NCBI GenBank assembly: GCA_009772895.1
Contig: WOUP01000024.1
Location: forward strand, 1 to 47,269
Source: Puniceicoccaceae bacterium 5H
Lineage (GTDB): Bacteria > Verrucomicrobiota > Verrucomicrobiia > Opitutales > Oceanipulchritudinaceae
Length of the DNA stretch: 47,269 nucleotides
Direction: 5' to 3'
The notes under the pieces were generated by a model, which made no database searches, had not been told where the DNA came from, and saw nothing but the letters and a program-made list of their open reading frames with translations. The position numbers and the translations under genes were made by a program. Shown here one piece after another: positions 18,370-45,422 of this stretch (position 1 is its first letter; the number at the start of each line of letters is the position of its first letter).

Positions 18370-18380
18370 TTTACGGAAAA
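18370..18380. promoter_or_regulatory. Regulon palindrome, site 1
   Basis: Core TTTAC-G-GAAAA with a right flank GCG; the right half reads CGCTTTTC on the other strand. It sits between the divergent GxGYxYP and isomerase/epimerase operons. One mismatch to TTTAC-N-RTAAA. Confidence 0.6.
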
Positions 18381-18425
18381 GCGTCTGAGCCCTCGGAAGC
18401 GCGCTCCAGCGCCGCACCCTGAGGG

Positions 18426-19295
18426 GTGAAAACATCACCGCCCGTGAGCACGCAAACCACCTTTGAAGACCTGGATCTGGCGATCCTGACCGACGAATTG
18501 AGCCTCGATCTGGAGGCGGCGATCCTGGCGGGCAAGGCCCTCGGTATCCGTCGCTACGAGCTCAGATGCGTGGACACCTATGAGCAGCGCGTGCCCGACC
18601 TCAAACCCTGCCGCCGCGAACAACTGCAGGCGTGGGTGCAGCAGGGAGAACTCGCCATCACCGCCTTGTCGCCCGGGCTCTTCAAGCTACGACCGGAGAA
18701 CTTGTCGCAGCTCAAGGCCGAGCTGGAGCAAACCCTGCCGGCGACTTGCGAATGGGCGCGCGAACTCGGGGCTCCTTGCGTCATCGTTTTTGGCTTCCTC
18801 CGTTCGAGCCTCGCTCATCCGGTCGAGGTGATCGCCCGCCTGCGCGAAGCCGCTCAGGTCGCCGCCGCCTTCGGCCTCAAGCTCGCGATCGAAAACGAGC
18901 CGGGCGCCTACTGCGACACCGGCGCGCGCACTGCGGAGATCGTCGCCACCATCGGCGAGGCCAATCTCGGGATCAACTGGGACCCGGCCAACGCGGTCGT
19001 GGCGGGTGAGGCGGCCTACCCCGTGGGCTACGAGCGCGTGCGGCCCTGGTTGCAAAACGTGCACGTCAAGGATGCCATCCCCCTGCTGGACGGAACCTGG
19101 GCCAACCGCCTGCTCGGAGACGGCGGAGTCAACTGGTGGGGCCAGCTCGCCGCGCTGCGCCGGGATCGACCGGTCGATCACGTGACCCTCGAAACCCACG
19201 TCCTGCCCCTGCTGCCTTCCACCCGGGAGAACCTCCGGCGTTGGAAGGCCCTGCGGCAGGCCACCGATGTCTTGCTCAACACCGAGCGTTCCTAA
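18426..19295 (+). CDS. Sugar phosphate isomerase/epimerase-like TIM-barrel protein
   Basis: About 289 residues of the AP-endonuclease-2/xylose-isomerase-like TIM barrel. Likely metal ligands appear in the usual order on strand ends: Glu in LAIENEPG, Asp in INWDPANA, His in NVHVKD and Glu in VTLETH. Such proteins isomerise, epimerise or dehydrate sugars and inositols in the cytoplasm. The start is uncertain: GTG at 18426 or GTG at 18444 (MSTQTTFED); a GAGGGGTGA stretch lies before the second. First gene of a two-gene rightward operon with the large toroid protein 17 nt downstream. Confidence 0.8.
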   Translation: MKTSPPVSTQTTFEDLDLAILTDELSLDLEAAILAGKALGIRRYELRCVDTYEQRVPDLKPCRREQLQAWVQQGELAITALSPGLFKLRPENLSQLKAELEQTLPATCEWARELGAPCVIVFGFLRSSLAHPVEVIARLREAAQVAAAFGLKLAIENEPGAYCDTGARTAEIVATIGEANLGINWDPANAVVAGEAAYPVGYERVRPWLQNVHVKDAIPLLDGTWANRLLGDGGVNWWGQLAALRRDRPVDHVTLETHVLPLLPSTRENLRRWKALRQATDVLLNTERS

Positions 19296-19312
19296 CCGTC
19301 ACACTCCTTGTC

Positions 19313-21787
19313 ATGCACGCCCCCACCAACCTGCTCGACCTGCCCGATCTGGAAGCCCCCATGGGCGATTTGGCGCAACACCGCATGTTGTCCGAATGCC
19401 GCGCGATCTGGACCGCGCCGTTGCCTGAAGAACCGGGGGCGCCGCCCTCACGCATCATCCACCAGCGCGCCTTTACCCCCACGGGCCCGGCCCGCGTCCG
19501 CCGGATCGGCTGGCGCAACGCCCAGGGGTATCACAAGTGCGGTAGCCACCAGCTGACCGACTGGATCGTGGACCTGCGCATCCTCACCCTGGATGCGCCG
19601 GACGCGTCCTGGCGGGTGCTACACTACGTGCGGGACCTGCCCCGGGCATCCGACGACGCCCCTTACACCTGGCTGGACCTCGAGGAGCTCACCACCTACG
19701 GCCTTTGCCTGGAGATCCGGCGGTGCGGGATCGACGGCTGGTGGACGCCCTGGAACCTCGCCGCCGAGGCCTTTGTGGTGGAGGGTCAACTCGAGGCGCC
19801 GCTCGCCTCGCGTCGCGAGCGCCTGCTCTCGCTCGGGCCGGTCGAACTCGCTCACCTGCCGCGCGGACTCGAAGCCCAACGCCTCGATGGCGAGTTGCGT
19901 TTTCGTTCCCGCTGGCTGGAGGTGGGCTTCTGCCTCAGCCGCCCGGGCTTGACCTACCTCGCCCTCGACCAGGACGGCAACTGCGATACCGGTGAAAATC
20001 TACTCTGCGTCGGCCCCGGTTCTTTCCATCAAGGCCCGATGCTCAACCTCGTGGGCCAGCCGCCCAATGCCGATCCCGCCGTGCGCTTCAGCTTTACGGG
20101 TCGCGTCACCGTCAAGGGCAACACCATCCGCTACCATCTGCGCGAGGACGCGCTGGACATGGGCTATGAGCTGGTCTGGAGCGTCTACGATCAGCACCTG
20201 GAATTTCGCGGGATGCGGACCCAGGCCCACGCACACACCGCCTGGCACAGTGCGGCCTGGAAGATCAGCCTGAACCCGAGGGTAGCCGCCTGTCACCTGC
20301 TCGGCCGCCTGCTTCCCGCCGGACAGACCGGAGCCGTCGCCACGCCCGCGATCCTGCACGCGCCCCGCTTCGGCAGCCTCGCCCTGACCCAGGAGGGATC
20401 GGGTTGCCTGCGCATGGACGTGAACCGTCCTCAGGATCGGCTGGAATTCGAGTTCAAGATCGGTGAGGCCGCGACGCCGGAGGGCCATTGGCACCTGCCG
20501 GCCGGGCGTCACCAGGCCGCCTGGCACCTGCATTTGACCGTGCCCGAATTTCCCCTCAAATCGAGTGCCCCGCTGGCTGTCCGGGCCGCCTTGCGCCGCG
20601 CCGGCCATACCGGCCTCAACTATCGCCCCGATACCGCCACCCTCAGCAACAACGGGGCCTCCATGCATTGCCCGATCTCGATGGACACCTGGAGCGCCCA
20701 ATGCGTGCGCATGGGCCCCTTACTGCCTGGCCTGCCCGCCCACGAGATGCTGCGGACCTCCCTCGAGCGGTGGTTGACCGGGGGGCCCGGCTATGCCGCC
20801 GGTAACCTGCTCTCCCCGGCGGGCGTGCACCCGGCGGAAGACGACTACCTCATGACGGGCACGGCGGCCCTGTTTGGCTTGGCCGAATATTTGACGCAGG
20901 CCGCGCCACCCGGTTGGGGTCAGCGCTTCGAGCCCGAGATCCGCCGCAAACTGGAGGCGATGCTCGCGCGCGACCTCGACGGCGATGGCCTGATCGAGAG
21001 CCGCAACCGCACCGGCACCTCGGGCACGGGCCAATGGAGCACCTGCTGGTTCGACGTGATTTCGTTTGGCTGGAAAGACGCGTTTTCCAACGCCATCCTC
21101 TACGAGGCCTTGGGCATAATGCTGCGGGCCCTCGAGCCGTGCGGTCTGGAGGACTGGCGCTCCCGAATAGTCGATTGGCGGACGCTAATGCAGCAGGCCT
21201 TCACCCCCACGTTTCTGAATCCCCAGACGGGCTGGTATGCCGGCTGGGTCTGCCCGGAGGGCAAACGCCACGACCACGCGTTTCTGCCGCCCAACGGGGC
21301 CGCCGTCGCCGCCGGCCTGGTCGCGCCCGCGGAAGGGCACACCCTCCTGAAGCGCCTGCTGCAGGAAATGAAGCGCGTAGCCCTGCCCTCTCCCCGCCTC
21401 GGCCTGCCGGCCAACCTGTGGCCCATCCCGGATGCAGACCTTGCCGACATCATCCAGGGCTATCCCTTCGGCTACTATCAAAACGGTGGGCGCACACATG
21501 GACAGGCCCGCCACTTTGTACGCGGCCTCTATCGGGCCGGGCTGGAAATAGAGGCGGACCGCCTGCTGGAGCAACTGTGCAGCGGCCTCGCCGACGCCTC
21601 GGTCTTCGGCGGTTGCAAGAGCGGTCGCGACTGGCGCTACTGGGACGACCGCCCCTGTGGCTACGAGGGCTTGCTGACGGACCAGTTCGGCGTCCTGGGT
21701 GTCGCCCTGGAACGCTACGGGGGCGTGACGCGCGATTTGGCGGGGCCGGCAGAACCCCGCTCAGAACCCATAACACGGCAATCCTAG
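19313..21787 (+). CDS. Large cytosolic glycosidase-like protein (predicted helical toroid)
   Basis: An 824-residue protein without a signal peptide. The N-terminal half (to about residue 430) is beta-rich. The C-terminal half, from AEDDYLMTGTAALFGLAEYL on, has the helix-rich pattern with acidic signature DLDGDGLIESRNRTG and WFDVISFGWKDAFSNA typical of (alpha/alpha)6-toroid glycosidases such as GH78, GH63 or GH116-like enzymes, ending with GGRTHGQARHFVRGLY and WRYWDDRPCGYEGLL. I could not assign a glycoside hydrolase family. Being cytosolic, it would act on imported oligosaccharides or glycosides. A strong terminator hairpin follows at 21791-21823. Confidence 0.6.
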   Translation: MHAPTNLLDLPDLEAPMGDLAQHRMLSECRAIWTAPLPEEPGAPPSRIIHQRAFTPTGPARVRRIGWRNAQGYHKCGSHQLTDWIVDLRILTLDAPDASWRVLHYVRDLPRASDDAPYTWLDLEELTTYGLCLEIRRCGIDGWWTPWNLAAEAFVVEGQLEAPLASRRERLLSLGPVELAHLPRGLEAQRLDGELRFRSRWLEVGFCLSRPGLTYLALDQDGNCDTGENLLCVGPGSFHQGPMLNLVGQPPNADPAVRFSFTGRVTVKGNTIRYHLREDALDMGYELVWSVYDQHLEFRGMRTQAHAHTAWHSAAWKISLNPRVAACHLLGRLLPAGQTGAVATPAILHAPRFGSLALTQEGSGCLRMDVNRPQDRLEFEFKIGEAATPEGHWHLPAGRHQAAWHLHLTVPEFPLKSSAPLAVRAALRRAGHTGLNYRPDTATLSNNGASMHCPISMDTWSAQCVRMGPLLPGLPAHEMLRTSLERWLTGGPGYAAGNLLSPAGVHPAEDDYLMTGTAALFGLAEYLTQAAPPGWGQRFEPEIRRKLEAMLARDLDGDGLIESRNRTGTSGTGQWSTCWFDVISFGWKDAFSNAILYEALGIMLRALEPCGLEDWRSRIVDWRTLMQQAFTPTFLNPQTGWYAGWVCPEGKRHDHAFLPPNGAAVAAGLVAPAEGHTLLKRLLQEMKRVALPSPRLGLPANLWPIPDADLADIIQGYPFGYYQNGGRTHGQARHFVRGLYRAGLEIEADRLLEQLCSGLADASVFGGCKSGRDWRYWDDRPCGYEGLLTDQFGVLGVALERYGGVTRDLAGPAEPRSEPITRQS

Positions 21788-21790
21788 ATG

Positions 21791-21823
21791 AAAAGACCAC
21801 CTCCGTCGCCCGACGGAGGTGGT
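21791..21823. terminator. Bidirectional terminator
   Basis: A perfect 13-bp stem (ACCACCTCCGTCG at 21796-21808 with CGACGGAGGTGGT at 21811-21823) with a 2-nt loop. On the minus strand it ends in TCTTTT, so it best serves the leftward TonB-receptor transcript; it also closes the rightward operon. Confidence 0.8.
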
Positions 21824-21874
21824 TGCTTATTGTGACAGCGATGCAGGCTACTGATGCAGAGACTGAATGGCTCT

Positions 21875-24800
21875 CTAGAATCTAACCGATGCCGTGAAGG
21901 AAATGACCCGACCTTCGAGAATGCGGTAGGTATAGGTCTCGTCCGGGTTGGCGTGGATCGGCACCAGGCCGTCGTGGTTCGTCAGGTCGGAGACATAGAC
22001 CTGGAACGTCGTTTCGAGGCCGCCGATCTGCGTATCCACATTCACGAAGACGTCGAAGAAGTTCATCGAGGGCGCCATGTAGGGGTGCTCGATGTCCGGC
22101 GCCACGGACCCGGTCTCTTCGTCGATCATGGCAGGGAAGCCGATGCCGGCTTCGTCTTCATAACGGTAGGTACCGCCGATCTCGAGGCCGTCGATGTGGA
22201 AGCGCTCAAAGATGTCTTCAAAGCGATACTTGGAGGTCACGACGTAGCGCCATTCCCGTTGCTCGACCGTGGGATAACCGTCCTGGGCCGCCGCCAGCAG
22301 CAGCGGCGTGCCCATCAAGTCCTGCGTGTATTTGGCCAGCGTGATGCCCGACGTGTCATCCATGACGTAGTGCTGGGCAAAATCGCTTTCAATCCAGTTC
22401 GGCACGACGAAATCGTTGTACCAGCGACGGAGAACCGGCGCGGTATTGTCGGTCGTGGTCTCCTGACGCGAGATCTTGAGCAAGGTCGTCCACTTGCGGA
22501 TCGGATTCAGCAGAATTTCGATTTCGACCCCTTCCGAAACAAAATCCTGTGTCGCACTGCGATTCGGATTCGGGTTGGTCGTGGTATTGTCGGGCGTATC
22601 CCAGTCGAATTCCACGCCATGGAGCGCAATGACCGCATCTGAAGGCAGGACCGCCTGGACGTCTGCCGCCGTGTAGCCTTGAGCAATATTGGCCGGATTA
22701 TCGAGCTGATAGGCCAGATTGCGCATGATGGACTGCGGAGCGGCCACGGCGTCGGTGTAGAAGCTGCCGTTGTAGACCCCCGTCTCGAAGAAGTTGACCC
22801 GGGCACTGATCTTGTTGTCCAGGCCACTCACCGTGAAGCCCCATTCCTCGGTTTCACCCGACGCGTTCGGGATGCTGTCGCCGATGGCATCGAGGCCGCC
22901 ACCACCGGGCTGGTAGTTTTGCCCTTTGCCGTAGTGCAGGCTCAGATTGAGCCCCGCCGGCATATGCCGCTCGATGAAGTGCGGCGTGTGCAGCACGATG
23001 CCCCAATTGCGGTTCTCGAACTCCTTTTCAAGGGTGGAGTCATATTCCGGCCCGGCCAGGAAGTCCGGATCATGCAAGTCGGAACGCCCAGGATTGCCGT
23101 TGGGGTAGATCACTTGAGGCGCGCTCATGGTCGACGAATTCCATTCGTCTCGCCGCCAGGCGTACTGGAAGACGGCAATATCGTCGAGCAGGTGCCAGGT
23201 GCCGTTGAGCACGTAGGAGTCGATCGTTTCGATGCCCTTCGTCCCCGAATAAGTGGCCGGATAGCCACCGTTGTCCGTCGCCTGGTAGAGCGTCAGCATG
23301 ACGTCCTCATACGACTGAGTCGTCAGGTTGAGCATGGAGAACGTGAGTTGGTCCGGCACCGTCTGCCCACTGTTGATGGGCTGGATGTTCAGGCCCTTCA
23401 GGTCCTCCGCGCTATCGAAGTCGAGCAGGTTCACCCCGCTGCTGCGGCCGGAGTAATCCAGCGCGTGATATTGCCCCAGGTAAAAGGTCTTGGTGTGGAA
23501 TGACGTCTCGGGATCGTCACCCAGCAATTGCTCGTAGATGTCGTCCGGCGAAGTCGTGTCGCGGGTGTAGATCAGGTAGTAATTGCTGTCGCGCGTCTGG
23601 TAGAGACCGGTCAGGTCCACGTTGCCGAGCAGGCGTTCCCACAACGAGCCGTCATCCAACACCTGATTCGCTTCCAGGCTGAGGAAAGCCGTCAGGCGAT
23701 GCGATTCCCGCTCGTTGCGGCTGATCGAGTTTTCGGCGCGACTCGCCACGGCAACCCCACCGTAGTTGGGGTTTACACGCACCTCGCCGCCCAGAGAAGA
23801 CTCCGTCGTGCCGAGGTAGGGATTGAAGTCGATCATGATCGACTCGCCGCCCGGGTCTCCGCGCAACTGGTTGAGTTGGCCTTCGCGGAACGACTCGTGG
23901 TGATAGGCGTAGTTCAGGCCCAGGCGGTTATCCCAGAACAGCTTTTCGACCTCTACGATGTAGTCCTCAAAGCGCGCGAAGTCGGTGCTGAGGCCGCCGT
24001 CGAGCAAATGCTTGCGGTAATCGAAGATGCTGCGGTCCGTAATTTGGCGGTCCGTACGCGTATCCCACATCGCCCCGCTGCCGGCGACCGCAATGGGCTC
24101 GCCCGTATCCGGGTAGGCGCCACTGAGTGAGATTGAGTTGTTGTAGTTGCGCAACGAGAGCATCATCCGGTGCGTCGTGGAATACGCGGCGCTCGAGCCC
24201 AGCTCATTGGCATACTGAATGGTGCGCGCGCCCAACGGATCGGGCTCACTGCTGTTGGGGTCGAGCCAGAAGACCGTCGGCCCGTCCGCACCGCCGAGCA
24301 TCGGGTAAACCCAGCGATTGTTCGGCTGATTCAACTCCGGATAGATTCCCCCCGACTGGGAATACCACGTGCCGGCTTCGAGCGCATCGTTAAAGATCGG
24401 CAGCCCGGCGTCGCGCAACGCGTAATAGCCGGAGATCAGGTCTGCCGGCGGCATGGTGCGAGGCGGCGAAGCATCTCGCTTGCCCCATTCCCCGCTCGCG
24501 CGGACGGTAAAGGTCTGGTCGCCGAAGGGGTGGATCGTCGTGGTGAGGAAGACGCGGTGTTGGTCGTCGTAAGCCTCTTCCTGTTCATAGTTTGCGTTGT
24601 CCGCCAACAGCGCGACGCGAACCGCCAACACATCTTCGATCGCCTCCACGTTGTAGCGGAACTCCTCCCGCGTGCTGCCATACTGGTCGACCTTGAGACG
24701 GGCATTGCCGAAGTTTCCGGCCATCTCGGCCTTGATCAGCGAATTGTTGACGATACCAGCGGCGCTGCCCAGGCCGAAAAGGGCGGCGTTGGCCCCACGC

Positions 24801-25288
24801 TGCACTTCAATACGGCTCGTATTGTAGGCGTCGAAGGGAATCTGCGTCTTGAAGAACTCGCGCGTCAAATCCGCCTCGGCCAGACCGCGCAAACGCGTCA
24901 CGCCGCCGGAATTGTTATCGCGGGCCAGCTCTCCAATCGGATCCCCTGGCGTCACGCCCTGCGAACCGGAGAAATTACCCGAGAGGCCACTCACTTCGGA
25001 GTTGGCCTGAAACAGGAGCACGTCGGCAATGTTCACCGAGTTGGTGTCTGCCATGAAGTCTTCCGTGACGACCGAAATCGAGGTCGCCAGGTCTTTGAGG
25101 TCCGACCGGATGCGGGTCCCGGCCAGGGTTTCTGAAGCGTAATACCCCACATCGCCCGAGGCATCGACCGTAAACGGCGATAACTCGTAAATGTCTTCAT
25201 CTTCTGGAGCATTGGTCGGAGTCTGTGCGCAAAGCGCCACAGTGGAAAACGCACTGAGCCAGCAGAGACTGAAGCGGGCCAATTTCAT
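21875..25288 (-). CDS. TonB-dependent outer-membrane receptor
   Basis: About 1137 residues: signal peptide (MKLARFSLCWLSAFSTVALCA), a short region with the TonB-box-like YELSPFTVDA, a plug domain (about residues 45-190; ETLAGTRIRSDLKDL, TRIEVQRGANAALFGLGSAAG analogues) and a long 22-strand beta barrel ending in ITASVRF-type residues with the required C-terminal aromatic. The N-terminal ELSPFTVDAS form is common in verrucomicrobial receptors. No SusD partner is next to it, as expected outside Bacteroidota. It likely imports the substrate of the surrounding locus across the outer membrane. ATG 25288 is chosen for the signal peptide; an ATG at 25339 is in frame. Two regulon palindromes lie upstream. 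Confidence 0.93.
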   Translation of the reverse strand: MKLARFSLCWLSAFSTVALCAQTPTNAPEDEDIYELSPFTVDASGDVGYYASETLAGTRIRSDLKDLATSISVVTEDFMADTNSVNIADVLLFQANSEVSGLSGNFSGSQGVTPGDPIGELARDNNSGGVTRLRGLAEADLTREFFKTQIPFDAYNTSRIEVQRGANAALFGLGSAAGIVNNSLIKAEMAGNFGNARLKVDQYGSTREEFRYNVEAIEDVLAVRVALLADNANYEQEEAYDDQHRVFLTTTIHPFGDQTFTVRASGEWGKRDASPPRTMPPADLISGYYALRDAGLPIFNDALEAGTWYSQSGGIYPELNQPNNRWVYPMLGGADGPTVFWLDPNSSEPDPLGARTIQYANELGSSAAYSTTHRMMLSLRNYNNSISLSGAYPDTGEPIAVAGSGAMWDTRTDRQITDRSIFDYRKHLLDGGLSTDFARFEDYIVEVEKLFWDNRLGLNYAYHHESFREGQLNQLRGDPGGESIMIDFNPYLGTTESSLGGEVRVNPNYGGVAVASRAENSISRNERESHRLTAFLSLEANQVLDDGSLWERLLGNVDLTGLYQTRDSNYYLIYTRDTTSPDDIYEQLLGDDPETSFHTKTFYLGQYHALDYSGRSSGVNLLDFDSAEDLKGLNIQPINSGQTVPDQLTFSMLNLTTQSYEDVMLTLYQATDNGGYPATYSGTKGIETIDSYVLNGTWHLLDDIAVFQYAWRRDEWNSSTMSAPQVIYPNGNPGRSDLHDPDFLAGPEYDSTLEKEFENRNWGIVLHTPHFIERHMPAGLNLSLHYGKGQNYQPGGGGLDAIGDSIPNASGETEEWGFTVSGLDNKISARVNFFETGVYNGSFYTDAVAAPQSIMRNLAYQLDNPANIAQGYTAADVQAVLPSDAVIALHGVEFDWDTPDNTTTNPNPNRSATQDFVSEGVEIEILLNPIRKWTTLLKISRQETTTDNTAPVLRRWYNDFVVPNWIESDFAQHYVMDDTSGITLAKYTQDLMGTPLLLAAAQDGYPTVEQREWRYVVTSKYRFEDIFERFHIDGLEIGGTYRYEDEAGIGFPAMIDEETGSVAPDIEHPYMAPSMNFFDVFVNVDTQIGGLETTFQVYVSDLTNHDGLVPIHANPDETYTYRILEGRVISFTASVRF

Positions 25289-25484
25289 AGCAGTGAGTAC
25301 TTGGGTTAAACTTAGGATCTTGAGACATCGCCTGAACATTCACTACGTATCCATGGCCCTGAAGCGAGCCAACATAGCCCTGTCCAATCAGTAAGATCAG
25401 GATGCACCAGACTTGCAGTGAAATGTCCCCGGCGATGCCGCAGGATTTAAGTTTATCCCGAATTCAAATCTATATTTTTGACGG

Positions 25485-25495
25485 TTTACAATAAA
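25485..25495. promoter_or_regulatory. Regulon palindrome, site 2a
   Basis: Core TTTAC-A-ATAAA with left flank CGG and right flank GC. On the minus strand a TTAAAT hexamer lies about 40 bp downstream, placing it beside a plausible TonB-receptor promoter. Confidence 0.65.
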
Positions 25496-25625
25496 GCCTG
25501 ACCCAATCTCTTGGGCGCGCGTCGAGGCAAACCCCATCAGACGTCGACAAGCAAGGCGCCTCCTCCCTTTTCGGCCAATGGCCAAACACCGCCCCGGGGA
25601 GTCTCCCCCCGCTCCAACCGCCTGA

Positions 25626-25636
25626 TTTACCGTAAA
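25626..25636. promoter_or_regulatory. Regulon palindrome, site 2b
   Basis: Core TTTAC-C-GTAAA, the only perfectly symmetrical copy in the window. It lies 141 bp from site 2a (centre to centre), so looping between the two is possible. Confidence 0.65.
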
Positions 25637-26059
25637 GCACAGGCAGTCTCCCACCAGCGATTTTATGAATTAGAATAAAAGTGGGAATACATAGTCAATC
25701 AACGTTGAGTTACCCTCGCTATACGTCCATCACCCAAGCTCGGAACCGCGCACTTTCCTTTTCCTTGCCGTCCATTCAGAGCAAACGTCTTTCCATGCAT
25801 AACCAGAAACCGGGCGTATAAAATAAACCACCACGACATGGAGGCTCGGGCGCAATTTTACTCGCTTAAGCAAAATAGTATCCATAGCATCATGTTACCC
25901 CACTCAAGGCGCAAGACATGCTACTCTCATTGCGTCGCGGCTTGCTGAACGTCTATCGGTCTTGACTGACGTATCCACCCAGAGATTACTGGATTTTCTG
26001 CAGCCTCTCGCCCTAGCCGTAACCAACCGATTTCACTGGATTCGCCCCCTTCGATCGCC

Positions 26060-29316: not shown

Positions 29317-29366
29317 GTGGCGCCACGATCCGCCAACGACCCGGGCCGAGCAACGGAACAGGGTGC

Positions 29367-29377
29367 TATACCGTAAA
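29367..29377. promoter_or_regulatory. Regulon palindrome, site 3
   Basis: Core TATAC-C-GTAAA, one mismatch from the consensus. It lies between the divergent symporter and threonine-dehydratase-like genes and could serve both. Confidence 0.55.
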
Positions 29378-29490
29378 TCCGGGCAGGGGTTCCGTCGTTG
29401 GCCGGTAAGGCGCATGCCTTGGGTTACCGGGCATAACCGCGCCGGTCCTGCCGGTTCGCCCGAGGCTCACCTCAACCGCTTTTCTTCACC

Positions 29491-31023: not shown

Positions 31024-31037
31024 AGCCGGTCCCGCGC

Positions 31038-31048
31038 TTTACCATACA
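31038..31048. promoter_or_regulatory. Regulon palindrome, site 4
   Basis: Core TTTAC-C-ATACA with flanks CGC and ACG, one mismatch. It lies 84 bp before the first amidohydrolase gene; a TGTAAT hexamer starts 41 bp from its centre. Confidence 0.65.
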
Positions 31049-31131
31049 ACGGGCCGCCCCTCTGCAGGCCCGCAAGAATCGTTTGTAATCGCGTCATCAC
31101 CCAGCCGACCCGGCTCGCCCTTCGACCGCCC

Positions 31132-32657: not shown

Positions 32658-32671
32658 AGGGCCGGGCACAG

Positions 32672-32682
32672 TTTACCATAAA
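32672..32682. promoter_or_regulatory. Regulon palindrome, site 5
   Basis: Core TTTAC-C-ATAAA with right flank ACG. It lies 122 bp before the second symporter gene; a CTTAAT hexamer begins 41 bp from its centre. Confidence 0.7.
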
Positions 32683-32803
32683 ACGCCGCCAAGGTGCCCC
32701 GCGCAGGGCAACGCCCCCTTAATAGCGTTCGCACGCACCCGGATGATGTCCACCTCCCCGATGGGCCGACGCAGAAGCGCCCCGTCCATTCGCCCTGCAC
32801 CCA

Positions 32804-36663: not shown

Positions 36664-36686
36664 ACCCAACCTCCTGCATCCCGATC

Positions 36687-37886: not shown

Positions 37887-37915
37887 CGTAGCGACAGCGC
37901 CCCACTACAAACTGT

Positions 37916-37951: not shown

Positions 37952-37992
37952 GCCGTTCAAGCGATGATAACTGTCCCCAAACGAAAAGCAGG

Positions 37993-39057
37993 CTACCGGA
38001 GCCAGGCATCGAGGTGGCTCTGGATAAAAGCGTCGTCGTTCAACTCTGGGTAGGTGCGGTAAATCCGGTCGATCGCTTCAGCCTGCCCCGGCGAAAGCCC
38101 CTCCTCGGGATTGAGCGTCCAGATGCCTTCCAGCAGGCCCTGACGCCGGAGGATCTCGTGAATCCCGGTGATGCAGCCCCGAAAGCCGTGCGCCACATCG
38201 AAGACGACGGCATTCACATCCACCCATTGCTGGGCGCGCGTCATCCACTCGGCGGACAGCGGCAGGCCGTCCGCCCGGAGGCGGCGAATGCGTTGAAAAT
38301 CCTCCACCGCGCGCTGGGTCCACACCGCCCATTGGCCCAACAGGCCACCCCGGATCGGGATGCTCTGCCCCGGGCCAGGGCCGAAGCGGTAGGTCGTCAG
38401 CAGGTCGAGCAGGATGTTGTCGTCGTTGCCGGTGTAGAGGGCGAGGGAGTCTGCCCGGCCGGCATCCACCACGGCCCGCGCCACGTCGAGCGACGCATAG
38501 CGGTTGAAGGGCGCGAGCTTGATCGCCACCAGGTTCTCGATCTCGGCCGCCTGCCGCCAGAAGGCGTAAGACAATGCCCGCCCGCCCACGGAGGGTTGCA
38601 GGTAAAAGCCGAACACCGGCATCACTTCGGCCACCGCCCGCAGGTGCGCGACCATCGCCGCGTCGGAGGCGCCCGCAAAGGCGGCCAGGCTCACTAACCC
38701 GAGGTGGTAGCCCAGCCCGGCGGCAATTTCCGCCTCCTGCACCGCCTGGGCGGTCGGACCGGCGATCCCGGCCACGCGGACCAGCGTGGTGCCCGCCTCG
38801 GCGGCATCCATCGTCTCCGCCGCCAGCGCCAGCACGGGCTCGTAAAGCCCCACCGACGGCTCGCGGATCTCGAATTGCGTGGTGTGCACACCCACGGCGA
38901 GACCGCCCGCGCCCGAGGCCAGATAGTAGCGCGTCAGGGCACGCTGGCGGCGCTCGTCGAAGCGGCGTCGGGCGGTCAGGGCCAAAGGATGAGCGGGAAT
39001 GGCGACCCCCTGAAACAGACGCTCGCGCACAGGAAGAGGTAAGGTATGGGCGGACAT
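37993..39057 (-). CDS. DHDPS/KDG-aldolase-family lyase
   Basis: A 354-residue TIM-barrel class I aldolase. The Schiff-base lysine is in LVAIKLAPFNRY, the partner tyrosine in GFYLQPSVGG, and the substrate loop reads GVHTTQFEIRE where DHDPS has GTTGE. Family members cleave or form 2-oxo-3-deoxy sugar acids, sialic acids or dihydrodipicolinate precursors. The altered loops and extra length over DapA (about 290) argue for a catabolic aldolase rather than lysine synthesis. It follows the epimerase gene by 8 nt in a two-gene leftward operon. Confidence 0.85.
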   Translation of the reverse strand: MSAHTLPLPVRERLFQGVAIPAHPLALTARRRFDERRQRALTRYYLASGAGGLAVGVHTTQFEIREPSVGLYEPVLALAAETMDAAEAGTTLVRVAGIAGPTAQAVQEAEIAAGLGYHLGLVSLAAFAGASDAAMVAHLRAVAEVMPVFGFYLQPSVGGRALSYAFWRQAAEIENLVAIKLAPFNRYASLDVARAVVDAGRADSLALYTGNDDNILLDLLTTYRFGPGPGQSIPIRGGLLGQWAVWTQRAVEDFQRIRRLRADGLPLSAEWMTRAQQWVDVNAVVFDVAHGFRGCITGIHEILRRQGLLEGIWTLNPEEGLSPGQAEAIDRIYRTYPELNDDAFIQSHLDAWLR

Positions 39058-39065
39058 GGATCGGA

Positions 39066-40112
39066 TTAGAAATTCCCGTCGCGGCGCTCAAAGCCCGTCG
39101 GCTTGTGGAAGGTGGAGCCATCGCGTTGAATCCAGGCGGCGATCCAGCGCATCATCGTTTCGACCGAGACTTCCGGCGGGCCGAAGAGCCGGTGCGAGGC
39201 GGAGGCGTCGCTCAACCATGCCGTGGGTGCTTCTTCGCCCACAAACCTGGGTTTGCGGCCGAGCAACGTGCCGAAGCAGCACGCCAGATCGCGCACCGAC
39301 AAGATGTCCGCACCCGTAATGTTGAGGGGGCGCGGAGGGGAAGCCGCCACGCTCAAGGCCTGCACGATCTGGTTGAGCGCGTCGTTTTGCCAGATGATGT
39401 TCACGTAGCCCATCGTCACGTCGACCGGCTCGCCGTTCATGACTTTGAGCGCAATATCGACGGGCACGCCGTAGCGAAATTCGACCGCGTAATTGAGGCG
39501 GATGAGCGTGACGGGGGTGCCGCAGCGCAGCGAAACCGCCTCGAAGGCGCGCTCGCGGCCCAGGCAGGAAAACGCGTAGGCACCCACGGGCTGACGCGGC
39601 GCGTCTTCCGTCGATCCGCCCGAGTCGGGCGGGACGTAGGCGTAGACACAACCGGTGGAAAGCGCGACGATCCGGGAGATCGCGTAGCGCTCCGCCAACT
39701 CCGCCGCGACGTCCACGTTCATCTGTTGCAACAGGCCCGGGTTGTCCGCCGTGCCGAACTTCGCGCCGACGAGGTAAAAGACGGTCGGGCACTCCGGCAG
39801 GCTGCGCACAAAAGCCGCGTCGCGAAAATCGCCCACCAGCGTCTTTACCCCCACCCGCTCGTAGGCTTCGCGACCGGCCAGGGTGCGAAAGCGCGAGGCG
39901 GCGTAGACCGTGTTGTCCTTGCCCAGCTGACGGAAGCCCTCTTTCAACATCCAGCTGAGATGAAAGCCCATTTTGCCGCCGGCGCCCAATACGATGACAT
40001 CCCCCTCGAGCGAGGCGAGCGTCTCCAGGGTGCCCGCCTTGGGCTGGGCGAGAAACGAGTCCACCTCATTCATCGAACAAGGCAGCGGCAAGGAGGAGTT
40101 GACGGTGGTCAT
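39066..40112 (-). CDS. NAD-dependent epimerase/dehydratase-like protein
   Basis: A 348-residue extended SDR-type protein. The NAD-binding motif is VIVLGAGGKMGFHLSW (residues about 39-54) and STGCVYAYVPPDSG follows the fifth strand. The catalytic YxxxK motif is missing: the region reads GAYAFSCLGRERAFE, with Arg or no lysine in place. It may act through another mechanism or serve a related non-redox step. First gene of a leftward operon with the aldolase-like gene; a regulon palindrome lies 48 bp upstream. Confidence 0.78.
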   Translation of the reverse strand: MTTVNSSLPLPCSMNEVDSFLAQPKAGTLETLASLEGDVIVLGAGGKMGFHLSWMLKEGFRQLGKDNTVYAASRFRTLAGREAYERVGVKTLVGDFRDAAFVRSLPECPTVFYLVGAKFGTADNPGLLQQMNVDVAAELAERYAISRIVALSTGCVYAYVPPDSGGSTEDAPRQPVGAYAFSCLGRERAFEAVSLRCGTPVTLIRLNYAVEFRYGVPVDIALKVMNGEPVDVTMGYVNIIWQNDALNQIVQALSVAASPPRPLNITGADILSVRDLACCFGTLLGRKPRFVGEEAPTAWLSDASASHRLFGPPEVSVETMMRWIAAWIQRDGSTFHKPTGFERRDGNF

Positions 40113-40159
40113 GCGGTCGATCTTTCTCGGGTAGCCATTTCAGACAAGGGGGTGCGTGT

Positions 40160-40170
40160 TTTACTGAAAA
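40160..40170. promoter_or_regulatory. Regulon palindrome, site 6
   Basis: Core TTTAC-T-GAAAA with right flank CCG, one mismatch, like site 1. It lies between the epimerase start (40112) and the stop of the upstream isomerase gene (40176), so the epimerase-aldolase pair probably has its own promoter. Confidence 0.6.
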
Positions 40171-40175
40171 CCGCC

Positions 40176-40964
40176 TCAGCTCACCGCCGTCAGCCAGGTC
40201 TTCAGCGCCGCCGCGTCTTCCCGGAATGCCTCCAGCGAAGCCTCGCGCACATGCTCGATCAATGCCCAGCGGCCCAGATTGCGCACGGGTTCCAACGCGG
40301 CGAGGTAGCGCTTCCACTCATCCTCTCCCTCCTGCAAAGGCCGGATGTGGGGCCACGGGTTTTGGCCGAAATGAAAGCAGTGCAGGTTCGTCACCCGCGG
40401 CTCCAATTGGCGCAAGCCGGCCAATCGAACTTCGGGCGAAGTCTGCAGCGGAGGCTGCCACAGCGTGCGCACATTGGGCCGGTCGATGGCGTCCAGCAAC
40501 CGTGCGGTGGACGTCGCCGTCTCGGTCAGCGTCCGCCCGTGGAACTCGAAGTCCAGACGCAACCCCCGCTCGCGCGCTGCCGCAGCAAAGCGTTGTGCCT
40601 GCTCCACGATGCGGAAAAAAACGATGTCTTCCACCGCCTCGGGGCTTTGTTTGCCGGCCCAGATGCGAATTGCAGGCGCGCCGAGGGCTTCGGCCGTATC
40701 CAGCACCGCATCGTAGGACGGCGACGCCACCTTGGGATCGCCCACCAGACACTCGCAAAACTTGTAGTACGAGCCAAACGAGACGACCTCCAGACCGGCT
40801 TCGCGCGTGCGGCGCGCAATTACTTCCGCCGTGCCCAGTTGGCCCGTGGGCACATGCACTTCCCCGCCCCACTCGATGCCGCGCAGCCCGGCATCCGCCA
40901 CCGCTTCGATGATGCGTTCAGGGGACAACGCCCGGAAGGTAATGGAAACAAGTCCAGCTTTCAT
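40176..40964 (-). CDS. Sugar isomerase/epimerase-like TIM-barrel protein
   Basis: A 262-residue member of the same fold as the protein at 18426 but not closely alike. Metal-site candidates are Glu in LDFEFHGRT, Gln/Asp region in TLWQPPL, His in LHCFHFG and Glu in ALIEHV. The N terminus MKAGLVSITFRALSPERII is typical of the family, so ATG 40964 is taken over one at 40982. Substrate unknown. Divergent from the secreted toroid-like gene, with a regulon palindrome in the shared gap. Confidence 0.8.
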   Translation of the reverse strand: MKAGLVSITFRALSPERIIEAVADAGLRGIEWGGEVHVPTGQLGTAEVIARRTREAGLEVVSFGSYYKFCECLVGDPKVASPSYDAVLDTAEALGAPAIRIWAGKQSPEAVEDIVFFRIVEQAQRFAAAARERGLRLDFEFHGRTLTETATSTARLLDAIDRPNVRTLWQPPLQTSPEVRLAGLRQLEPRVTNLHCFHFGQNPWPHIRPLQEGEDEWKRYLAALEPVRNLGRWALIEHVREASLEAFREDAAALKTWLTAVS

Positions 40965-41013
40965 GGTCGCCGAGCCCACCATTTCGCCCTACAATGCGCC
41001 ACATCCCGCCGGT

Positions 41014-41024
41014 CTTACGATAAA
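41014..41024. promoter_or_regulatory. Regulon palindrome, site 7
   Basis: Core CTTAC-G-ATAAA, one mismatch. It lies between the divergent isomerase (start 40964) and secreted toroid-like protein (start 41075) genes and could control both. Confidence 0.55.
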
Positions 41025-41074
41025 CCACCCCTTGGCGTGCCTCTCCGCCGACCGACCACAACATCCGACCTATC

Positions 41075-43015
41075 GTGTGTGCCTTCTTCGCATCCATTCG
41101 CCTGAGTCGACGAACCCTCACCCGCGTTCCCTGGCTGTGCTTGGCCTGCTGGATCGCCTGGACCCAAGCCCTCGCGGCTGAAAGTGTGTGGCCGGCCGAA
41201 GCCGAACGCCTGGCCGCACTGGAACAGCGGCGCGAACGCGTCATCGACGAGGCGATTGCGCGCATCGACCCGCAAGACCCGTCCAAAGGCAGCCTGTTCG
41301 ACATCGCGGCGACGGTCTCGCGGGGCGAAAACCTCGACTGGGCCCGTCAACGCATCCGCGCGCTGAACGATCCGCCATCGGGCGCAATGTTCTGGATGCA
41401 CCCGATGGTGCTCGCGATGTATGCGGGCCGCGACTCCTGGAACGAGGACGACTGGGCCTACTTCCGCGAGCTGTGGCGGACCTACTTCCCCTACCGTGGG
41501 GATACGGAAAACCATTGGCTGATGTATTACGCGAGCCTGTATCTGGTCTGCGAGATGTTCCCTGAAGCCGGCGGCGAAGCGTGGTACAACGGCAAGAGCT
41601 CGGTCGAAAACATGGAGGAAGCCAGGGACTACTTGCGCGACTGGGTGCGGGTCACCACCTCCTACGGTCAAGGCGAGTTCGATTCGCCCAACTACATCGA
41701 GGAATACGTGCGCCCACTCTCGCTGCTCGCCGGTTGGGCTCAGGACCCCGAAGTGCGGCAGATCGGGCGCATGATGCTCGACTACATCCTCTTCGACTTT
41801 GCGGTGGAAGACCTCAACGGGCTCTACGGCGGCGCCCACAGCCGCATTTATCCCCGCTATACCCTGGAACCGGCCCTGACACCCGCCGCCTCCCACGCCT
41901 GGTTGCTCTTCGGGCAGGGTGAATACCAATCGACCGCCGGCTGCCTGATGCTCGCCTTGAGCGGCTACACCCCACCCGCCATCCTCGACCGCATCGCCCG
42001 CGACCGCGAAACGCCCTATGTGCAGCGTGAACTGAAACGCACCCGTTGGCGGCTCCGGCACATGGGCCCGGAAACCTTCGAGATCGACGGACGCGTCACG
42101 GCACCCGTCTACAAATACAGCTACGTGCACCCCGACTTCGTTCTCGGTTGTTGCCAGGGCGGCACGCTGCAGCCCATCCAGCAGCAGACCTGGAGCCTCA
42201 TCTGGCGGGAAGACCGACCGCGCGGCATCTCCAACACCATGTTTGCCGTCCAGCCCCACGCCTCACCGGAGGAAGGCACGCGCTTTTTCGTGACGGACTG
42301 GGATACGGTGACCGACCTCATCGCCCGGTCCAAAGTGGATTACACGGCGCCGGACAAGCTGGAAGGCGGGTCGCCCTACGAACAGATCTTCCAGCATGAG
42401 GGTACCTTAATCGCCCTCTACGACATCCCCGAGGACAGCCGTTTCCCACACATCCATACCTTTTTCTCCGAAGACCTCACCGCCCGCACCGAAGCGCCTT
42501 CGGGCTGGATCTTCGCCCAGGGCGGTCCGATCTACCTCGCTTATCGGCCCTTCGCCCCGGGCGAATGGCGACCGGTCGACTGGACGGGCCTGCTGCACGG
42601 CGGCGCCGGCGGCTGGGTCAGTAGCAACTTCGCCGAGTTGGCCGGAAAGAGCGAACTCTACCACAGCGAGGCCCGCCAAAACGGCTACGTCCTGCAGGTG
42701 GCTTCCCAACGCGATTTTGCCTCTTTCGCCCAATTTCAGAAGGCCGTCGAAGCCCTGCCGCTGAAGTTCTCGCTGCAAGGCACCCCCTCGGTGCGATTCA
42801 CCACGCTAGACGGCACCCAGCTCACCGCCACCTACGGCCAACCACCCGAAGTCAACGGCGCACCCGTCGACTACGCGGACTGGCCCCTGTTCGACGGTCC
42901 CTTCGGTCACGCCGAGCGCGGCAGCGAACACCTGGAAATGCGCTACGACGAAGCGCGCTACCAGCTCGACTTCACCGACTTGACCCGCAGCAGCTCTACC
43001 CCCTCGCAACAATGA
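41075..43015 (+). CDS. Secreted protein of unknown function, helical-toroid-like
   Basis: A 646-residue protein with a signal peptide (cleavage near QALA-AE, residue 34). The first ~330 residues are helix-rich and aromatic (NHWLMYYASLYLVCEMFP, SPNYIEEYVRPLSLLAGWA, GGAHSRIYPRY), the layout of an (alpha/alpha)-toroid, and the remainder is beta-rich (about 350-640), as in polysaccharide lyases and some glycoside hydrolases. I recognise no catalytic motif or family. The GTG start at 41075 gives a normal signal peptide. The stop overlaps the propeller gene (ATGA), so the two are co-translated and may act together outside the cell. Confidence 0.7.
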   Translation: MCAFFASIRLSRRTLTRVPWLCLACWIAWTQALAAESVWPAEAERLAALEQRRERVIDEAIARIDPQDPSKGSLFDIAATVSRGENLDWARQRIRALNDPPSGAMFWMHPMVLAMYAGRDSWNEDDWAYFRELWRTYFPYRGDTENHWLMYYASLYLVCEMFPEAGGEAWYNGKSSVENMEEARDYLRDWVRVTTSYGQGEFDSPNYIEEYVRPLSLLAGWAQDPEVRQIGRMMLDYILFDFAVEDLNGLYGGAHSRIYPRYTLEPALTPAASHAWLLFGQGEYQSTAGCLMLALSGYTPPAILDRIARDRETPYVQRELKRTRWRLRHMGPETFEIDGRVTAPVYKYSYVHPDFVLGCCQGGTLQPIQQQTWSLIWREDRPRGISNTMFAVQPHASPEEGTRFFVTDWDTVTDLIARSKVDYTAPDKLEGGSPYEQIFQHEGTLIALYDIPEDSRFPHIHTFFSEDLTARTEAPSGWIFAQGGPIYLAYRPFAPGEWRPVDWTGLLHGGAGGWVSSNFAELAGKSELYHSEARQNGYVLQVASQRDFASFAQFQKAVEALPLKFSLQGTPSVRFTTLDGTQLTATYGQPPEVNGAPVDYADWPLFDGPFGHAERGSEHLEMRYDEARYQLDFTDLTRSSSTPSQQ

Positions 43016-44025
43016 AGCGCCTAGCCCCCTATTGGATCATCGCCCTCCTGACAGCCTGTCCCGCCGCCTACGCCGCAGAGCCGCCCACGCCGGAGCTGTT
43101 TGCCGCCATGATCATGACGAAGCAACAGCAGGCGAGCGCCGTCCCCACCAGCAGCGGCGTGTTGTGGCGCGCCCCCAAGGGCGCGTGGAGCCGCCTGGGG
43201 CCCGAGATCCAATTGGTCAGCAGCGCTACCGTCGATCCCCATGATCCGGCACACATTTTCCTCGCCTGCGGCAACGGCATCGTGCGTTCGCGCGACGGTG
43301 GAGAGACTTGGCGGATGGTAACCGGCTGGCGCGAGGCCGACGTGCTCCAGATCGTCGTCGACCCCCAGTCGCGCGAAAACGTCTACGCGGCCACGGCCTG
43401 GGGCGTACTCGTCTCCCACGACGGCGGCGAGAGCTGGAGGGACGCCAGCGAGGGATTGCCGGCGGAACGCCTGGCCAAAGGCATTGCCATCGACCCGCGC
43501 AACCCCGCCCGACTGCTGCTCGCCACTACCACGGGGCTTTTCGAGAGCACCAACTGCGGCGCAGTCTGGCGACGCGTAGACGGCTTCCCAGAGGTGGCGG
43601 CCTTACGCATCTGCCAATCGGAAACCGATCTGGACCGGTGGCTGGTCGGCACCGAAGGACGTGGAGTCTGGCGCTCGCGCGACAACGGCCACACGTGGAG
43701 CCCATGCGCGCCCGCTCTCGCCCAGGCCAACGTCTACGCCGTCGCCGTCGCGCCGCACGATGCCGATCTGCTGGCCGCGGGCGGCTGGACCACCGGGGTG
43801 TGGTTTTCCCGGGATGGGGGCGACAAGTGGCAACCAGCGGCCACCGCCCTGCCCTCGGCCAATATCACGGCCATGACCTTCGACCCGGTTCATCGCCACC
43901 GCCTCTGGGCCTCCACGTTTGAAGAGGGCACCTTCTACACCGAGGACTTTGGAGCGACCTGGCACAGTGCGCACCTCGACGGTGCCTACGTCTTCGACCT
44001 GGGGTTTCTGGATCTCAAGCGCTGA
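43012..44025 (+). CDS. Secreted Asp-box (BNR/sortilin-like) beta-propeller protein
   Basis: A 337-residue protein with a signal peptide (MKRLAPYWIIALLTACPAAYA). Six Asp-box repeats follow at regular spacing: SRDGGETW, SHDGGESW, STNCGAVW, SRDNGHTW, SRDGGDKW and TEDFGATW, the third degenerate. This predicts a beta-propeller as in sialidases, sortilins and photosystem II assembly factors. The catalytic Arg triad of sialidases is not evident, so a binding or scaffold role is as likely as hydrolysis. Overlaps the preceding gene by 4 bp and converges with the M20 gene, 2 bp apart. Confidence 0.82.
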   Translation: MKRLAPYWIIALLTACPAAYAAEPPTPELFAAMIMTKQQQASAVPTSSGVLWRAPKGAWSRLGPEIQLVSSATVDPHDPAHIFLACGNGIVRSRDGGETWRMVTGWREADVLQIVVDPQSRENVYAATAWGVLVSHDGGESWRDASEGLPAERLAKGIAIDPRNPARLLLATTTGLFESTNCGAVWRRVDGFPEVAALRICQSETDLDRWLVGTEGRGVWRSRDNGHTWSPCAPALAQANVYAVAVAPHDADLLAAGGWTTGVWFSRDGGDKWQPAATALPSANITAMTFDPVHRHRLWASTFEEGTFYTEDFGATWHSAHLDGAYVFDLGFLDLKR

Positions 44026-44027
44026 GC

Positions 44028-45314
44028 TCACCCCGCTGGTAGCAACGCCAGTGCGGCGGCCGTCAGCGCAAAGATACCCGTTCGGAGCGTCGGGGCCGGA
44101 TCGGGCGCGAATTGCGTGTGGTGCAGCCCCGGCAGCAAGCGGCCTTCCCGCGTGGCCTGTTCAAACCGCTCCGGCTGCATCGCCCCGAGCCAAAAGAGGC
44201 AGATCGGGATCGAGCGGTCCGGGCCAGCGTAAGCCGTAAAATCCTCGCCCGCCAGCACAGGCTGCCACGGCTGCACGTGTTCCGCCCCCAGCCAGGCGCG
44301 GAACTGTCGAGCCACGGTCTGCGTCAGCGCCGGCTCGTTGTAGACCGAGCGCACGCCGTTCAAGCGCGTAACCTCCGGCATCAAGTAATCCGGAAAGCCC
44401 GCGGCCACCGCCTCGCCGCGCACGGTGCGCTCGAGCGCGGCCCAGAGCTGCCCCCGCACTGCCTCGCTGAAGGAGCGCAGCGTTACCTGGAGATTCACCT
44501 CGTTGGGGATCACATTGCCCGTGTTGCCGCCCCGGATGGAGCCGACCGAGATCACCGCCGGTTCCTGCGGATCGACTTCGCGGCTGACCACCGTCTGCAG
44601 CGCCAGCACGATACGGCTCGCGAGCACGATAGGGTCCCGGGTCTGGTGGGGAGCGGAACCGTGCCCGCCGATCCCGCGCACCCGGACATCCGCATAGTCC
44701 GCGTTGGCCATGCCGAAGCCTTCCGACAAGGCGACCGTGCCCGCCGGCTGCAAGTTGGTCACGTGCAGGGCGATGGCGGTATCCGGGCGCCCGAAGCGCT
44801 CATACAGCCCCGCTTCGAGCATGCCCAGGGCGCCCTCGAGGATCTCCTCCGCCGGTTGCGCGACACACACCAGGGTGCCTTGCCAACGATCGCGGAGTCG
44901 CGCCAGCTGCTGCGCCGCACCCTGCAGCACCGTGGTGTGCACGTCGTGACCGCAGGCGTGCATCACGGGCACGCGCTCGCCCTGCCGGCTGGTGGCGACG
45001 ACCTGGCTTGCGTAGGGCAAGCCCGTTTCTTCCGGCAGCGGCAGCGCATCCATATCTCCCCGCAGCAGCACGGTGGGGCCCTCGCCGTTGCGCAGCACTC
45101 CGACCACCCCGTGACCGCCGAAGTGCTCGGTCACGTCGAGACCCGCGGCGCGAAACGACTCGGCCACGATGCTCGCGGTTCGCTGTTCCTGCCCCGAAAG
45201 CTCCGGATGGGCGTGAAGGTCGCGATAGAGGGTTTCGAGCGCCGGCAGGTCCGCCTCGATCCGGTCGCGGATCAGGCGTTGCAAGGCGGATGCTGGGGTG
45301 GAATCGGAAGCCAT
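44028..45314 (-). CDS. M20-family amidohydrolase (N-acyl-amino acid/hippurate hydrolase type)
   Basis: A 428-residue metallopeptidase-fold hydrolase. Metal ligands appear in VMHACGHDVHTT, QPAEEILEG, IALHVTNLQ and LAGEDFTAY; the lid/dimerisation domain lies between (GGHGSAPHQTRDPI). Enzymes of this group remove acyl groups from N-acyl amino acids or amino sugars. No signal peptide, so it acts in the cytoplasm. ATG 45314 fits the start of the fold; longer frames lack support. A regulon palindrome lies 98 bp upstream, tying it to the catabolic locus. Confidence 0.9.
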   Translation of the reverse strand: MASDSTPASALQRLIRDRIEADLPALETLYRDLHAHPELSGQEQRTASIVAESFRAAGLDVTEHFGGHGVVGVLRNGEGPTVLLRGDMDALPLPEETGLPYASQVVATSRQGERVPVMHACGHDVHTTVLQGAAQQLARLRDRWQGTLVCVAQPAEEILEGALGMLEAGLYERFGRPDTAIALHVTNLQPAGTVALSEGFGMANADYADVRVRGIGGHGSAPHQTRDPIVLASRIVLALQTVVSREVDPQEPAVISVGSIRGGNTGNVIPNEVNLQVTLRSFSEAVRGQLWAALERTVRGEAVAAGFPDYLMPEVTRLNGVRSVYNEPALTQTVARQFRAWLGAEHVQPWQPVLAGEDFTAYAGPDRSIPICLFWLGAMQPERFEQATREGRLLPGLHHTQFAPDPAPTLRTGIFALTAAALALLPAG

Positions 45315-45411
45315 GGCAGTGAAAAGGTGACCCGGAGAATGCTGAACCGAAACAGCGCCGGGATCCAGCCATTGACGGACAATATTGCGTCTCCGTCGAT
45401 CTGCTGCCCGG

Positions 45412-45422
45412 TTTACCATAAA
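45412..45422. promoter_or_regulatory. Regulon palindrome, site 8
   Basis: Core TTTAC-C-ATAAA with flanks CGG and GCG, the closest match to CGNTTTAY-N-RTAAANCG. On the minus strand a GTCAAT hexamer begins 41 bp from its centre, upstream of the M20 gene. Confidence 0.7.

Follow-up and report, generated by a model that had tools for sequence, protein, structure and literature searches.

The 47,269-nucleotide contig WOUP01000024.1 of Puniceicoccaceae bacterium 5H, analyzed here over its full length (the window), carries a catabolic locus that includes a gene for a LacI-family regulator at 26060–27094. We propose that nine palindromes in the intergenic gaps of this locus are predicted sites of the locus-encoded LacI protein, which would thereby govern a dedicated carbohydrate regulon; we consider this explanation probable, and within it we lean, with less assurance, towards activation rather than repression as the mode of action. 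The window is the entire contig C32 of the genome (G000; 4.10 Mb in 40 contigs) and makes up 1.2% of it.

An earlier reading made from the sequence only had placed one shared palindrome at nine positions, and all nine are present:

18367–18383, plus strand: TGTTTTACGGAAAAGCG, in the gap between the GxGYxYP gene (minus) and a TIM-barrel gene, TIM1 (plus); core 18370–18380, one base off.
25482–25498, plus strand: CGGTTTACAATAAAGCC, upstream of the TonB-dependent receptor gene; core 25485–25495, exact.
25623–25639, plus strand: TGATTTACCGTAAAGCA, the second TonB site, with the ATG of the LacI gene 434 bp on; core 25626–25636, exact.
29364–29380, plus strand: TGCTATACCGTAAATCC, upstream of the sodium:solute symporter gene SSF1 (minus) and the ilvA-like gene (plus); core 29367–29377, one base off.
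31035–31051, plus strand: CGCTTTACCATACAACG, upstream of the amidohydrolase pair; core 31038–31048, one base off.
32669–32685, plus strand: CAGTTTACCATAAAACG, upstream of the genes for the symporter SSF2, the heparinase II/III-like protein (HepII) and the class-III aminotransferase; core 32672–32682, exact.
40157–40173, minus strand: TGTTTTACTGAAAACCG (plus-strand text), upstream of the epimerase and DHDPS-like genes; core 40160–40170, one base off.
41011–41027, plus strand: GGTCTTACGATAAACCA, in the gap between a second TIM-barrel gene, TIM2 (minus), and the g41075–BNR gene pair (plus); core 41014–41024, one base off; at 16.7 bits the weakest of the nine by the orthologue-site matrix described below.
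45409–45425, plus strand: CGGTTTACCATAAAGCG, upstream of the M20 gene (minus) and 317 bp before a lectin/beta-helix gene (plus); core 45412–45422, exact.

The core TTTAYNRTAAA is thus exact at four of the nine places and one base off at the other five, and the extended form CGNTTTACNRTAAANCG given in that reading stands as a consensus only: it is completed solely at 45409, which is also its sole full match genome-wide. Exact TTTAYNRTAAA occurs four times in the window against 0.02 expected, and TTTACNRTAAA with at most one mismatch returns exactly the same nine places (16 strand-matches against 0.42 expected). All nine are intergenic, as had been claimed, provided that the open reading frame of SSF1 is trimmed to the GTG at 29217; the 29367 site counts as intergenic because this reading frame is over-long, those orthologues whose start is visible beginning near its residues 62–67, which fits that GTG. 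When the nine sites, in both orientations, are made into a 17-base matrix, no other place in the window exceeds 14.4 bits. With a matrix made from orthologue sites instead, these nine again come out on top (16.7–23.0 bits, 25623–25639 being the highest), followed by 14.4 bits at 15009, within a gene, and then 8.2 bits; this ranking is not fully independent, since the orthologue sites were chosen using the window matrix.

The sites are kept in homologous loci of other Opitutales. As judged by the window matrix, 38 of 47 core orthologous upstream regions hold a site of at least 14 bits, as compared with 1 of 13 genes taken as operon-internal and with a mean of 0.74 and a maximum of 11 of 47 for 300 column-permuted matrices that keep the palindrome. 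Upstream start positions were anchored by hand and GxGYxYP genes were given 900 bp upstream; L050 (a remote SSF1 paralogue) was left out of the SSF1 counts, and the L045 LacI row (a wrong stretch), L062, L064 and L070 (contigs already represented) and L075–L081 were left out of the survey of upstream regions. All five GxGYxYP orthologues have a site, but each is shared with a divergent neighbor (SSF2 in two loci, the amidohydrolase in three), so that these rows are not independent; 34 of 42 regions reach 14 bits when they are set aside. The form TTTACNGTA[TC]A stands before SSF1 in 14 of 14 orthologues. For SSF2, the window and 9 of 9 orthologues share an identical TTTACCATAAA within DNA that has otherwise diverged, and all 11 complete upstream regions, the window included, hold a site, with L146, L149 and L152 differing only at the central base. 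The TonB relatives have a site of at least 12.6 bits in 13 of 13 cases, often two, and the amidohydrolase has one before 4 of 5 orthologues. The epimerase orthologues examined are two, with a site in G043 (15.6 bits) and none in G046 (6.9 bits). Counterparts of the 41011 site lie near orthologues in G043 (L053), G046 (L044:3335) and G002 (L048:9892), with only 8.4 bits in G047, and the GAAAA arm of the 18367 site recurs at sites adjoining TIM1 orthologues in G046 (L056:12890), G047 (L043:10325) and G043 (L052:14433). Sites are also present where the locus is split: in G043 the TIM1/Gfo-Idh and g41075/BNR orthologues lie on a contig other than that of LacI, and in G007 SSF2 lies on another contig. 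Sites before most units of the locus, kept at orthologous promoters, are what characterizes a local regulon. The one-base center is strict: over 447 kb of orthologue loci, exact TTTAY-N(k)-RTAAA occurs 31 times at k = 1 and 1, 2, 2, 1, 1 and 1 times at k = 0, 2, 3, 4, 5 and 6, respectively.

Two observations concern symporter genes in this set. First, the remote SSF1-like gene L050:5332–6555 (G043 contig C31; 29% identity) has a site of 14.9 bits just upstream, which suggests that the regulon could be wider in G043. Second, the SSF1 match of G047 (L117, C1:1405887–1408007) contains one in-frame TGA, which may reflect a sequencing error, a pseudogene or a problem of frame.

The 26060–27094 protein has the domains of the LacI/GalR family, an N-terminal LacI helix-turn-helix (PF00356, 42.5 bits, cut-off 27) and a periplasmic-binding-like sensor (PF13377, Peripla_BP_3, 45.1 bits, cut-off 26.5). 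Orthologues at 66–71% identity occur in 13 of the 372 genomes of the order that were searched, the window's own included, and in 16 named Opitutales-type loci that belong in part to the same genomes; the sister genome G001 has no LacI protein at this level of identity, and among the matches listed the next LacI proteins are at most 38% identical. Of the 26 rows listed, among which some genomes appear twice, 25 share the recognition helix VSRMTVSMALR, whereas G007 has VSSM. In loci that are long enough, the LacI gene is flanked by TonB and SSF1, the exceptions being L060, where 7.3 kb contain no TonB match, and G007, where no SSF1 was found.

To describe promoter geometry, 71 site-to-gene flanks were aligned (those in which the site reaches 11.5 bits and 75 nucleotides remain downstream of it, plus 13 flanks from the window), and −35 and −10 elements were scored separately at every distance and averaged by gene family. 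The best −35 match lies 12 nucleotides and the best −10 match 35 nucleotides after the 11-base core, giving a spacer of 17 nucleotides. The joint score at this spacing is −3.23, the next best being −5.90, and none of 5000 gene-family rotations reaches −3.23. The site center would accordingly lie at about −53, upstream of the −35 element, the kind of fixed position seen with activators at class I/II promoters. We favor activation by the regulator, at somewhat better than even chances, because of this position and because sites of the LacI-family protein CcpA upstream of −35 activate ackA, pta and ilvB (PMC3463425).

Several points weigh against activation. The promoter matrices were E. coli-like. 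Taken by itself, the −10 signal is weaker (P = 0.037 over all families, 0.004 for the window only, 0.21 without SSF2 and 0.30 for orthologues only), and the joint spacing is not followed by the TonB, LacI and HepII groups or by the 45729 flank. Six additional sites, from the same two gene families, again give a −10 peak at 35 but no −35 at 12, and their joint score of −2.79 at 35 is nearly equaled at 30 (−2.98).

The same regulator on the same sites could also be a classical repressor, standing in the way of RNA polymerase or of an activator, or joining the paired TonB sites in a loop, until sugar releases it. This account overlaps with ours, and we regard it as a serious but less probable possibility. 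LacI-family proteins are mostly described as repressors, paired sites stand before TonB in several genomes, and the LacI gene itself has a site upstream in 4 of 16 orthologues. Repressor sites, however, usually overlap the promoter at varied positions, whereas a single fixed distance to a promoter-like pair over several gene families is typical of activators. The precedent of CcpA is divided, since the upstream activating sites cited above stand beside lev of B. subtilis, which is repressed from a site upstream of −35 (PMC3463425). On the mode of action the earlier reading took no position; in our view activation agrees with the promoter geometry no less well than repression does. A LacI dimer would recognize TTTAC/GTAAA half-sites separated by a single base. 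Under activation, it would sit just upstream of −35 at many catabolic promoters and aid RNA polymerase; in a few relatives, the site before the LacI gene lies elsewhere and may repress. The members of such a regulon would be the TonB receptor, two sodium symporters, a heparinase-type protein, an aldolase, an epimerase, TIM-barrel proteins and amidohydrolases.

That the LacI protein is the likely binding factor is argued by loci in which the regulator has been exchanged. We compared 16 SSF1 genes of at least 61% identity among the matches listed, a set that overlaps the 14 orthologues above, and 13 of them have a site (16.4–21.9 bits). Eleven of the 13, the window included, have a LacI orthologue in the same stretch, the C10 copy of G235 has one on another contig, and the last is in G011. 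The three site-less genes (G312, 5.5 bits; G045, 4.4 bits; G235 C26, none of at least 9 bits in 6 kb) all adjoin a different LacI gene (in loci L124, L125 and L154), the protein of which is 27–28% identical and has the helix FS[IV]ATVSEALRN or YSVATVSEALRN. G235 holds both situations, one SSF1 copy with the site (C10) and one without it beside a different LacI (C26). In 16 SSF1 relatives that are more distant (about 40% identity), no score exceeds 6.8 bits. Two of the swapped loci carry another odd palindrome, TCTAAC-N-GTTAGA, in some places with mismatches:

G312 (L124): C55:55703, upstream of SSF1, and C55:50945.
G045 (L125): C6:12846, before the LacI gene, and C6:17461, 17492 and 21511.

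The swaps have weak points: the third locus (G235 C26) has no TCTAAC palindrome in 6 kb, whole-genome counts of the TCTAAC pattern are below a reversed-pattern control in G312 and G045 with matches elsewhere too, and in G011 both SSF1 and SSF2 have sites although no LacI orthologue was found (E 1e-100), its SSF1 running off a 3-kb contig. Nevertheless, conservation, co-occurrence and natural regulator swaps give good support to the earlier proposal of a single regulon run by the 26060–27094 protein.

The accompanying statement that this protein is the only regulator candidate in the window does not hold, since 2528–3748 encodes a protein with a cyclic-nucleotide-monophosphate-binding domain and a Crp-type helix-turn-helix. 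Binding by this CRP/FNR-family protein or by an unlinked factor would account for the sites of G011, yet we consider it very unlikely. The usual box of the family, TTGAT-N4-ATCAA, differs from the locus palindrome, and the spacing of FNR/CRP boxes is usually 4 or 6 bases; allowing one mismatch, the sole box of this type in the window is TTGACCTAGATCAA at 9726–9739, upstream of a cupredoxin gene and outside the locus. Moreover, all three SSF1 genes without a site stand beside a different LacI gene, one of them in a genome (G235) that has the site at its other SSF1 copy, and the best 17-mer matches are local to contig C32.

Still less probable is that each palindrome is a promoter (UP) element, rich in AT, to which RNA polymerase itself binds. 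The sites are AT-rich and lie at about −45 to −61, but they form a strict one-base-spaced palindrome with conserved C and G positions, and they are missing at SSF1 genes beside other LacI genes. Chance AT-rich intergenic palindromes are a negligible explanation, for although one base is off in five of the nine sites and a place inside an open reading frame elsewhere reaches 21.3 bits, nine places stand against 0.42 expected and are conserved in other genomes.

The rest of the genome bears on how far the motif is specific to the locus. With up to two mismatches the 17-mer occurs at 25 distinct places, 7 in C32 and 18 elsewhere, and those 18 are all at two mismatches; with at most one mismatch it occurs at 4 places, all in C32. 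Seven outside places, six of them from these 18, were scored with the orthologue matrix: six reach 14.8–16.3 bits and one, C35:19938, reaches 21.3 bits, which counts against uniqueness, and at least three of these places are in open reading frames. C35:19938 was considered as an extra regulon member and rejected, as it sits inside an open reading frame. Whole-genome totals of the TTTACNRTAAANCG pattern in five relatives are not above a reversed-pattern control, only those of G000 being higher, and the evidence in relatives is therefore the position of the sites and not their number. A sequence-only covariance model was too weak to discriminate: its two hits in the window's own genome both fall in C32, at E 1.4 and 2.0, and the LacI-less G001 has one with a better value (E 0.95), 150 of 576–1408 candidates being scored per genome.

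The operator center is one of the less usual features of the system. The natural operator of E. coli LacI is also odd-centered, which shows that such a center is possible for a LacI-family dimer; that protein is a repressor with a different half-site, and its main operator overlaps the transcription start. In the survey of LacI-family motifs by Ravcheev et al. 2014 (PMC4052901), 1251 of 1303 motifs are even palindromes, 1173 of them with a central CG, and about 4% are odd. The local sugar regulons described there resemble the window in that the regulator lies inside its own gene set, palindromes stand upstream of several units and paired sites occur, but their palindromes are mostly even, unlike the odd motif with a free center found here. 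In the LacI-family hinge helix, Ala and Leu are conserved and the Leu inserts at the central CG (PMC2978694); the hinge of the window protein, YTPDPNLTEL as assigned by eye, has the Leu, its Ala is replaced, and its sites have no central CG. CcpA, acting at cre in B. subtilis, is likewise a LacI/GalR-family protein with activating sites upstream of −35, but it is a global regulator that acts together with HPr-Ser-P and recognizes WTGNNARCGNWWWCAW (PMC3463425), whereas the window LacI looks local and would read TTTAC-N-GTAAA. A general rule of odd palindromes for LacI proteins of the order is not supported: among 36 paralogues, upstream palindromes with 8-base arms and at most one mismatch have gap 0 in 14 cases and gap 1 in 6.

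One paralogue in G000, C2:150681, has the helix VSKMTVSLALRDHPRI, which differs at two positions from the VSRMTVSMALRDHPRI of the window LacI. An even palindrome, GTTTACGTAAAC (GTTTAC-GTAAAC), is found at its own promoter (C2:150840), 10.7 kb away (C2:161527) and at C5:28750, and similar even sites (GTTTAC-GTAAAC or GTTTAT-GTAAAC) occur in G001 at C12:364291 and C12:344380, in part at a related LacI gene. Counts of the even GTTTAYRTAAAC with one mismatch are barely above control (7 as compared with 5 per strand in G000, 9 as compared with 6 in G001). The two G000 regulators seem to share a half-site and to differ in operator center. It is a tentative and rather doubtful extension that the paralogues would be separated only by this center, one extra base or none, with parity as a specificity code and the odd form activating at about −53.

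The genes of the locus are as follows:

14775–16082, minus: Gfo/Idh/MocA oxidoreductase, downstream of GxGYxYP; orthologues adjoin TIM1 in G043, G046 and G047.
16101–18314, minus: GxGYxYP putative glycoside hydrolase.
18426–19295, plus: TIM-barrel (AP_endonuc_2) protein TIM1.
19307–21787: after the TIM-barrel gene, without Pfam match.
21875–25339, minus: TonB-dependent receptor, 1154 amino acids.
26060–27094, plus: LacI-family regulator, 344 amino acids, recognition helix VSRMTVSMALRDHPRI.
27109–29217, minus: sodium:solute symporter SSF1, with GTG 29217 as the corrected start.
29491–31023, plus: threonine dehydratase (IlvA-like), of doubtful membership.
31132–31899 and about 31905–32657, plus: two Amidohydro_2 genes.
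32804–37886, plus: SSF2 symporter, heparinase II/III-like protein and class-III aminotransferase, in an order retained in G046, G043 and G047.
37993–40112, minus: DHDPS-like aldolase and NAD epimerase.
40176–40982, minus: TIM-barrel protein TIM2.
41075–44025, plus: g41075, without Pfam match, and a BNR-repeat protein.
44028–45314, minus: M20 amidohydrolase, the site of which is not conserved elsewhere.

The claim that the sites serve all units between them stands for most units, and it is doubtful for ilvA and M20, the membership of which is not conserved in other genomes. Relatives of ilvA (5) and M20 (6) from other genomes have no nearby site above 12.4 bits, the best being the ilvA relative L108, and the ilvA site of the window is also the conserved SSF1 site. 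The left edge moves from 16 kb to about 14.8 kb, since GxGYxYP is followed on its own strand by the Gfo/Idh gene; on the right, the locus is truncated where the contig ends. There, 45729–47159 encodes a beta-helix and ricin-type lectin protein with a weak match to an ulvan lyase beta-trefoil domain. Against solved structures, the heparinase-like protein has only distant matches, to oligo-alginate lyase and heparinase, and searches with the DHDPS-like, g41075 and 19307 proteins gave no match. We infer a regulon for carbohydrate uptake and breakdown in scattered Opitutales, the ligand of which may be a sugar or a uronate.

To the left of the locus lie nosZ-, norB-, feoA- and feoB-like genes and the CRP/FNR-type gene at 2528–3748, which is near the nosZ/norB-like genes. 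The motif is indeed absent before the denitrification and feo genes, the best place there, at 12518 just before the FeoA domain, scoring 12.7 bits (8.2 with the orthologue matrix), below all nine sites. At 12515–12530, just before the FeoA domain coding sequence, lies a perfect palindrome, TTTTGATATATCAAAA (0.00 expected), possibly a site of an iron or oxygen regulator.

Among the matches listed in the literature on Verrucomicrobi/Opitutales LacI proteins and polysaccharides, no title or abstract opening describes this regulon. One system for comparison is that of the Verruconatronum alginate genes (PMC13274419), where other Opitutales are discussed and heparinase-related lyases, an SSF symporter and a TonB system are listed, but where ‘LacI’ does not appear in the main text. 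As predicted here, the regulon is of a known kind, and its less usual features are the odd center and the activator-like position.

These results provide a concrete predicted regulator–site pair for a large catabolic locus of the Verrucomicrobiota, a phylum that the main text of PMC4052901 does not name (‘Verrucomicrobi’ is absent from it). LacI orthologues occur in Pelagicoccus sp. SDUM812005 and SDUM812002 and in strains DG1235 and K14, which are not labeled as metagenome assemblies, so that a test may be feasible in culture. The odd/even paralogue pair would offer a natural experiment on operator choice by LacI-type proteins, and so would the exchange of regulators beside a single transporter gene, which in G235 is seen within one genome. 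If activation is true, LacI-type proteins may turn on the sugar loci of this group, and not merely derepress them.

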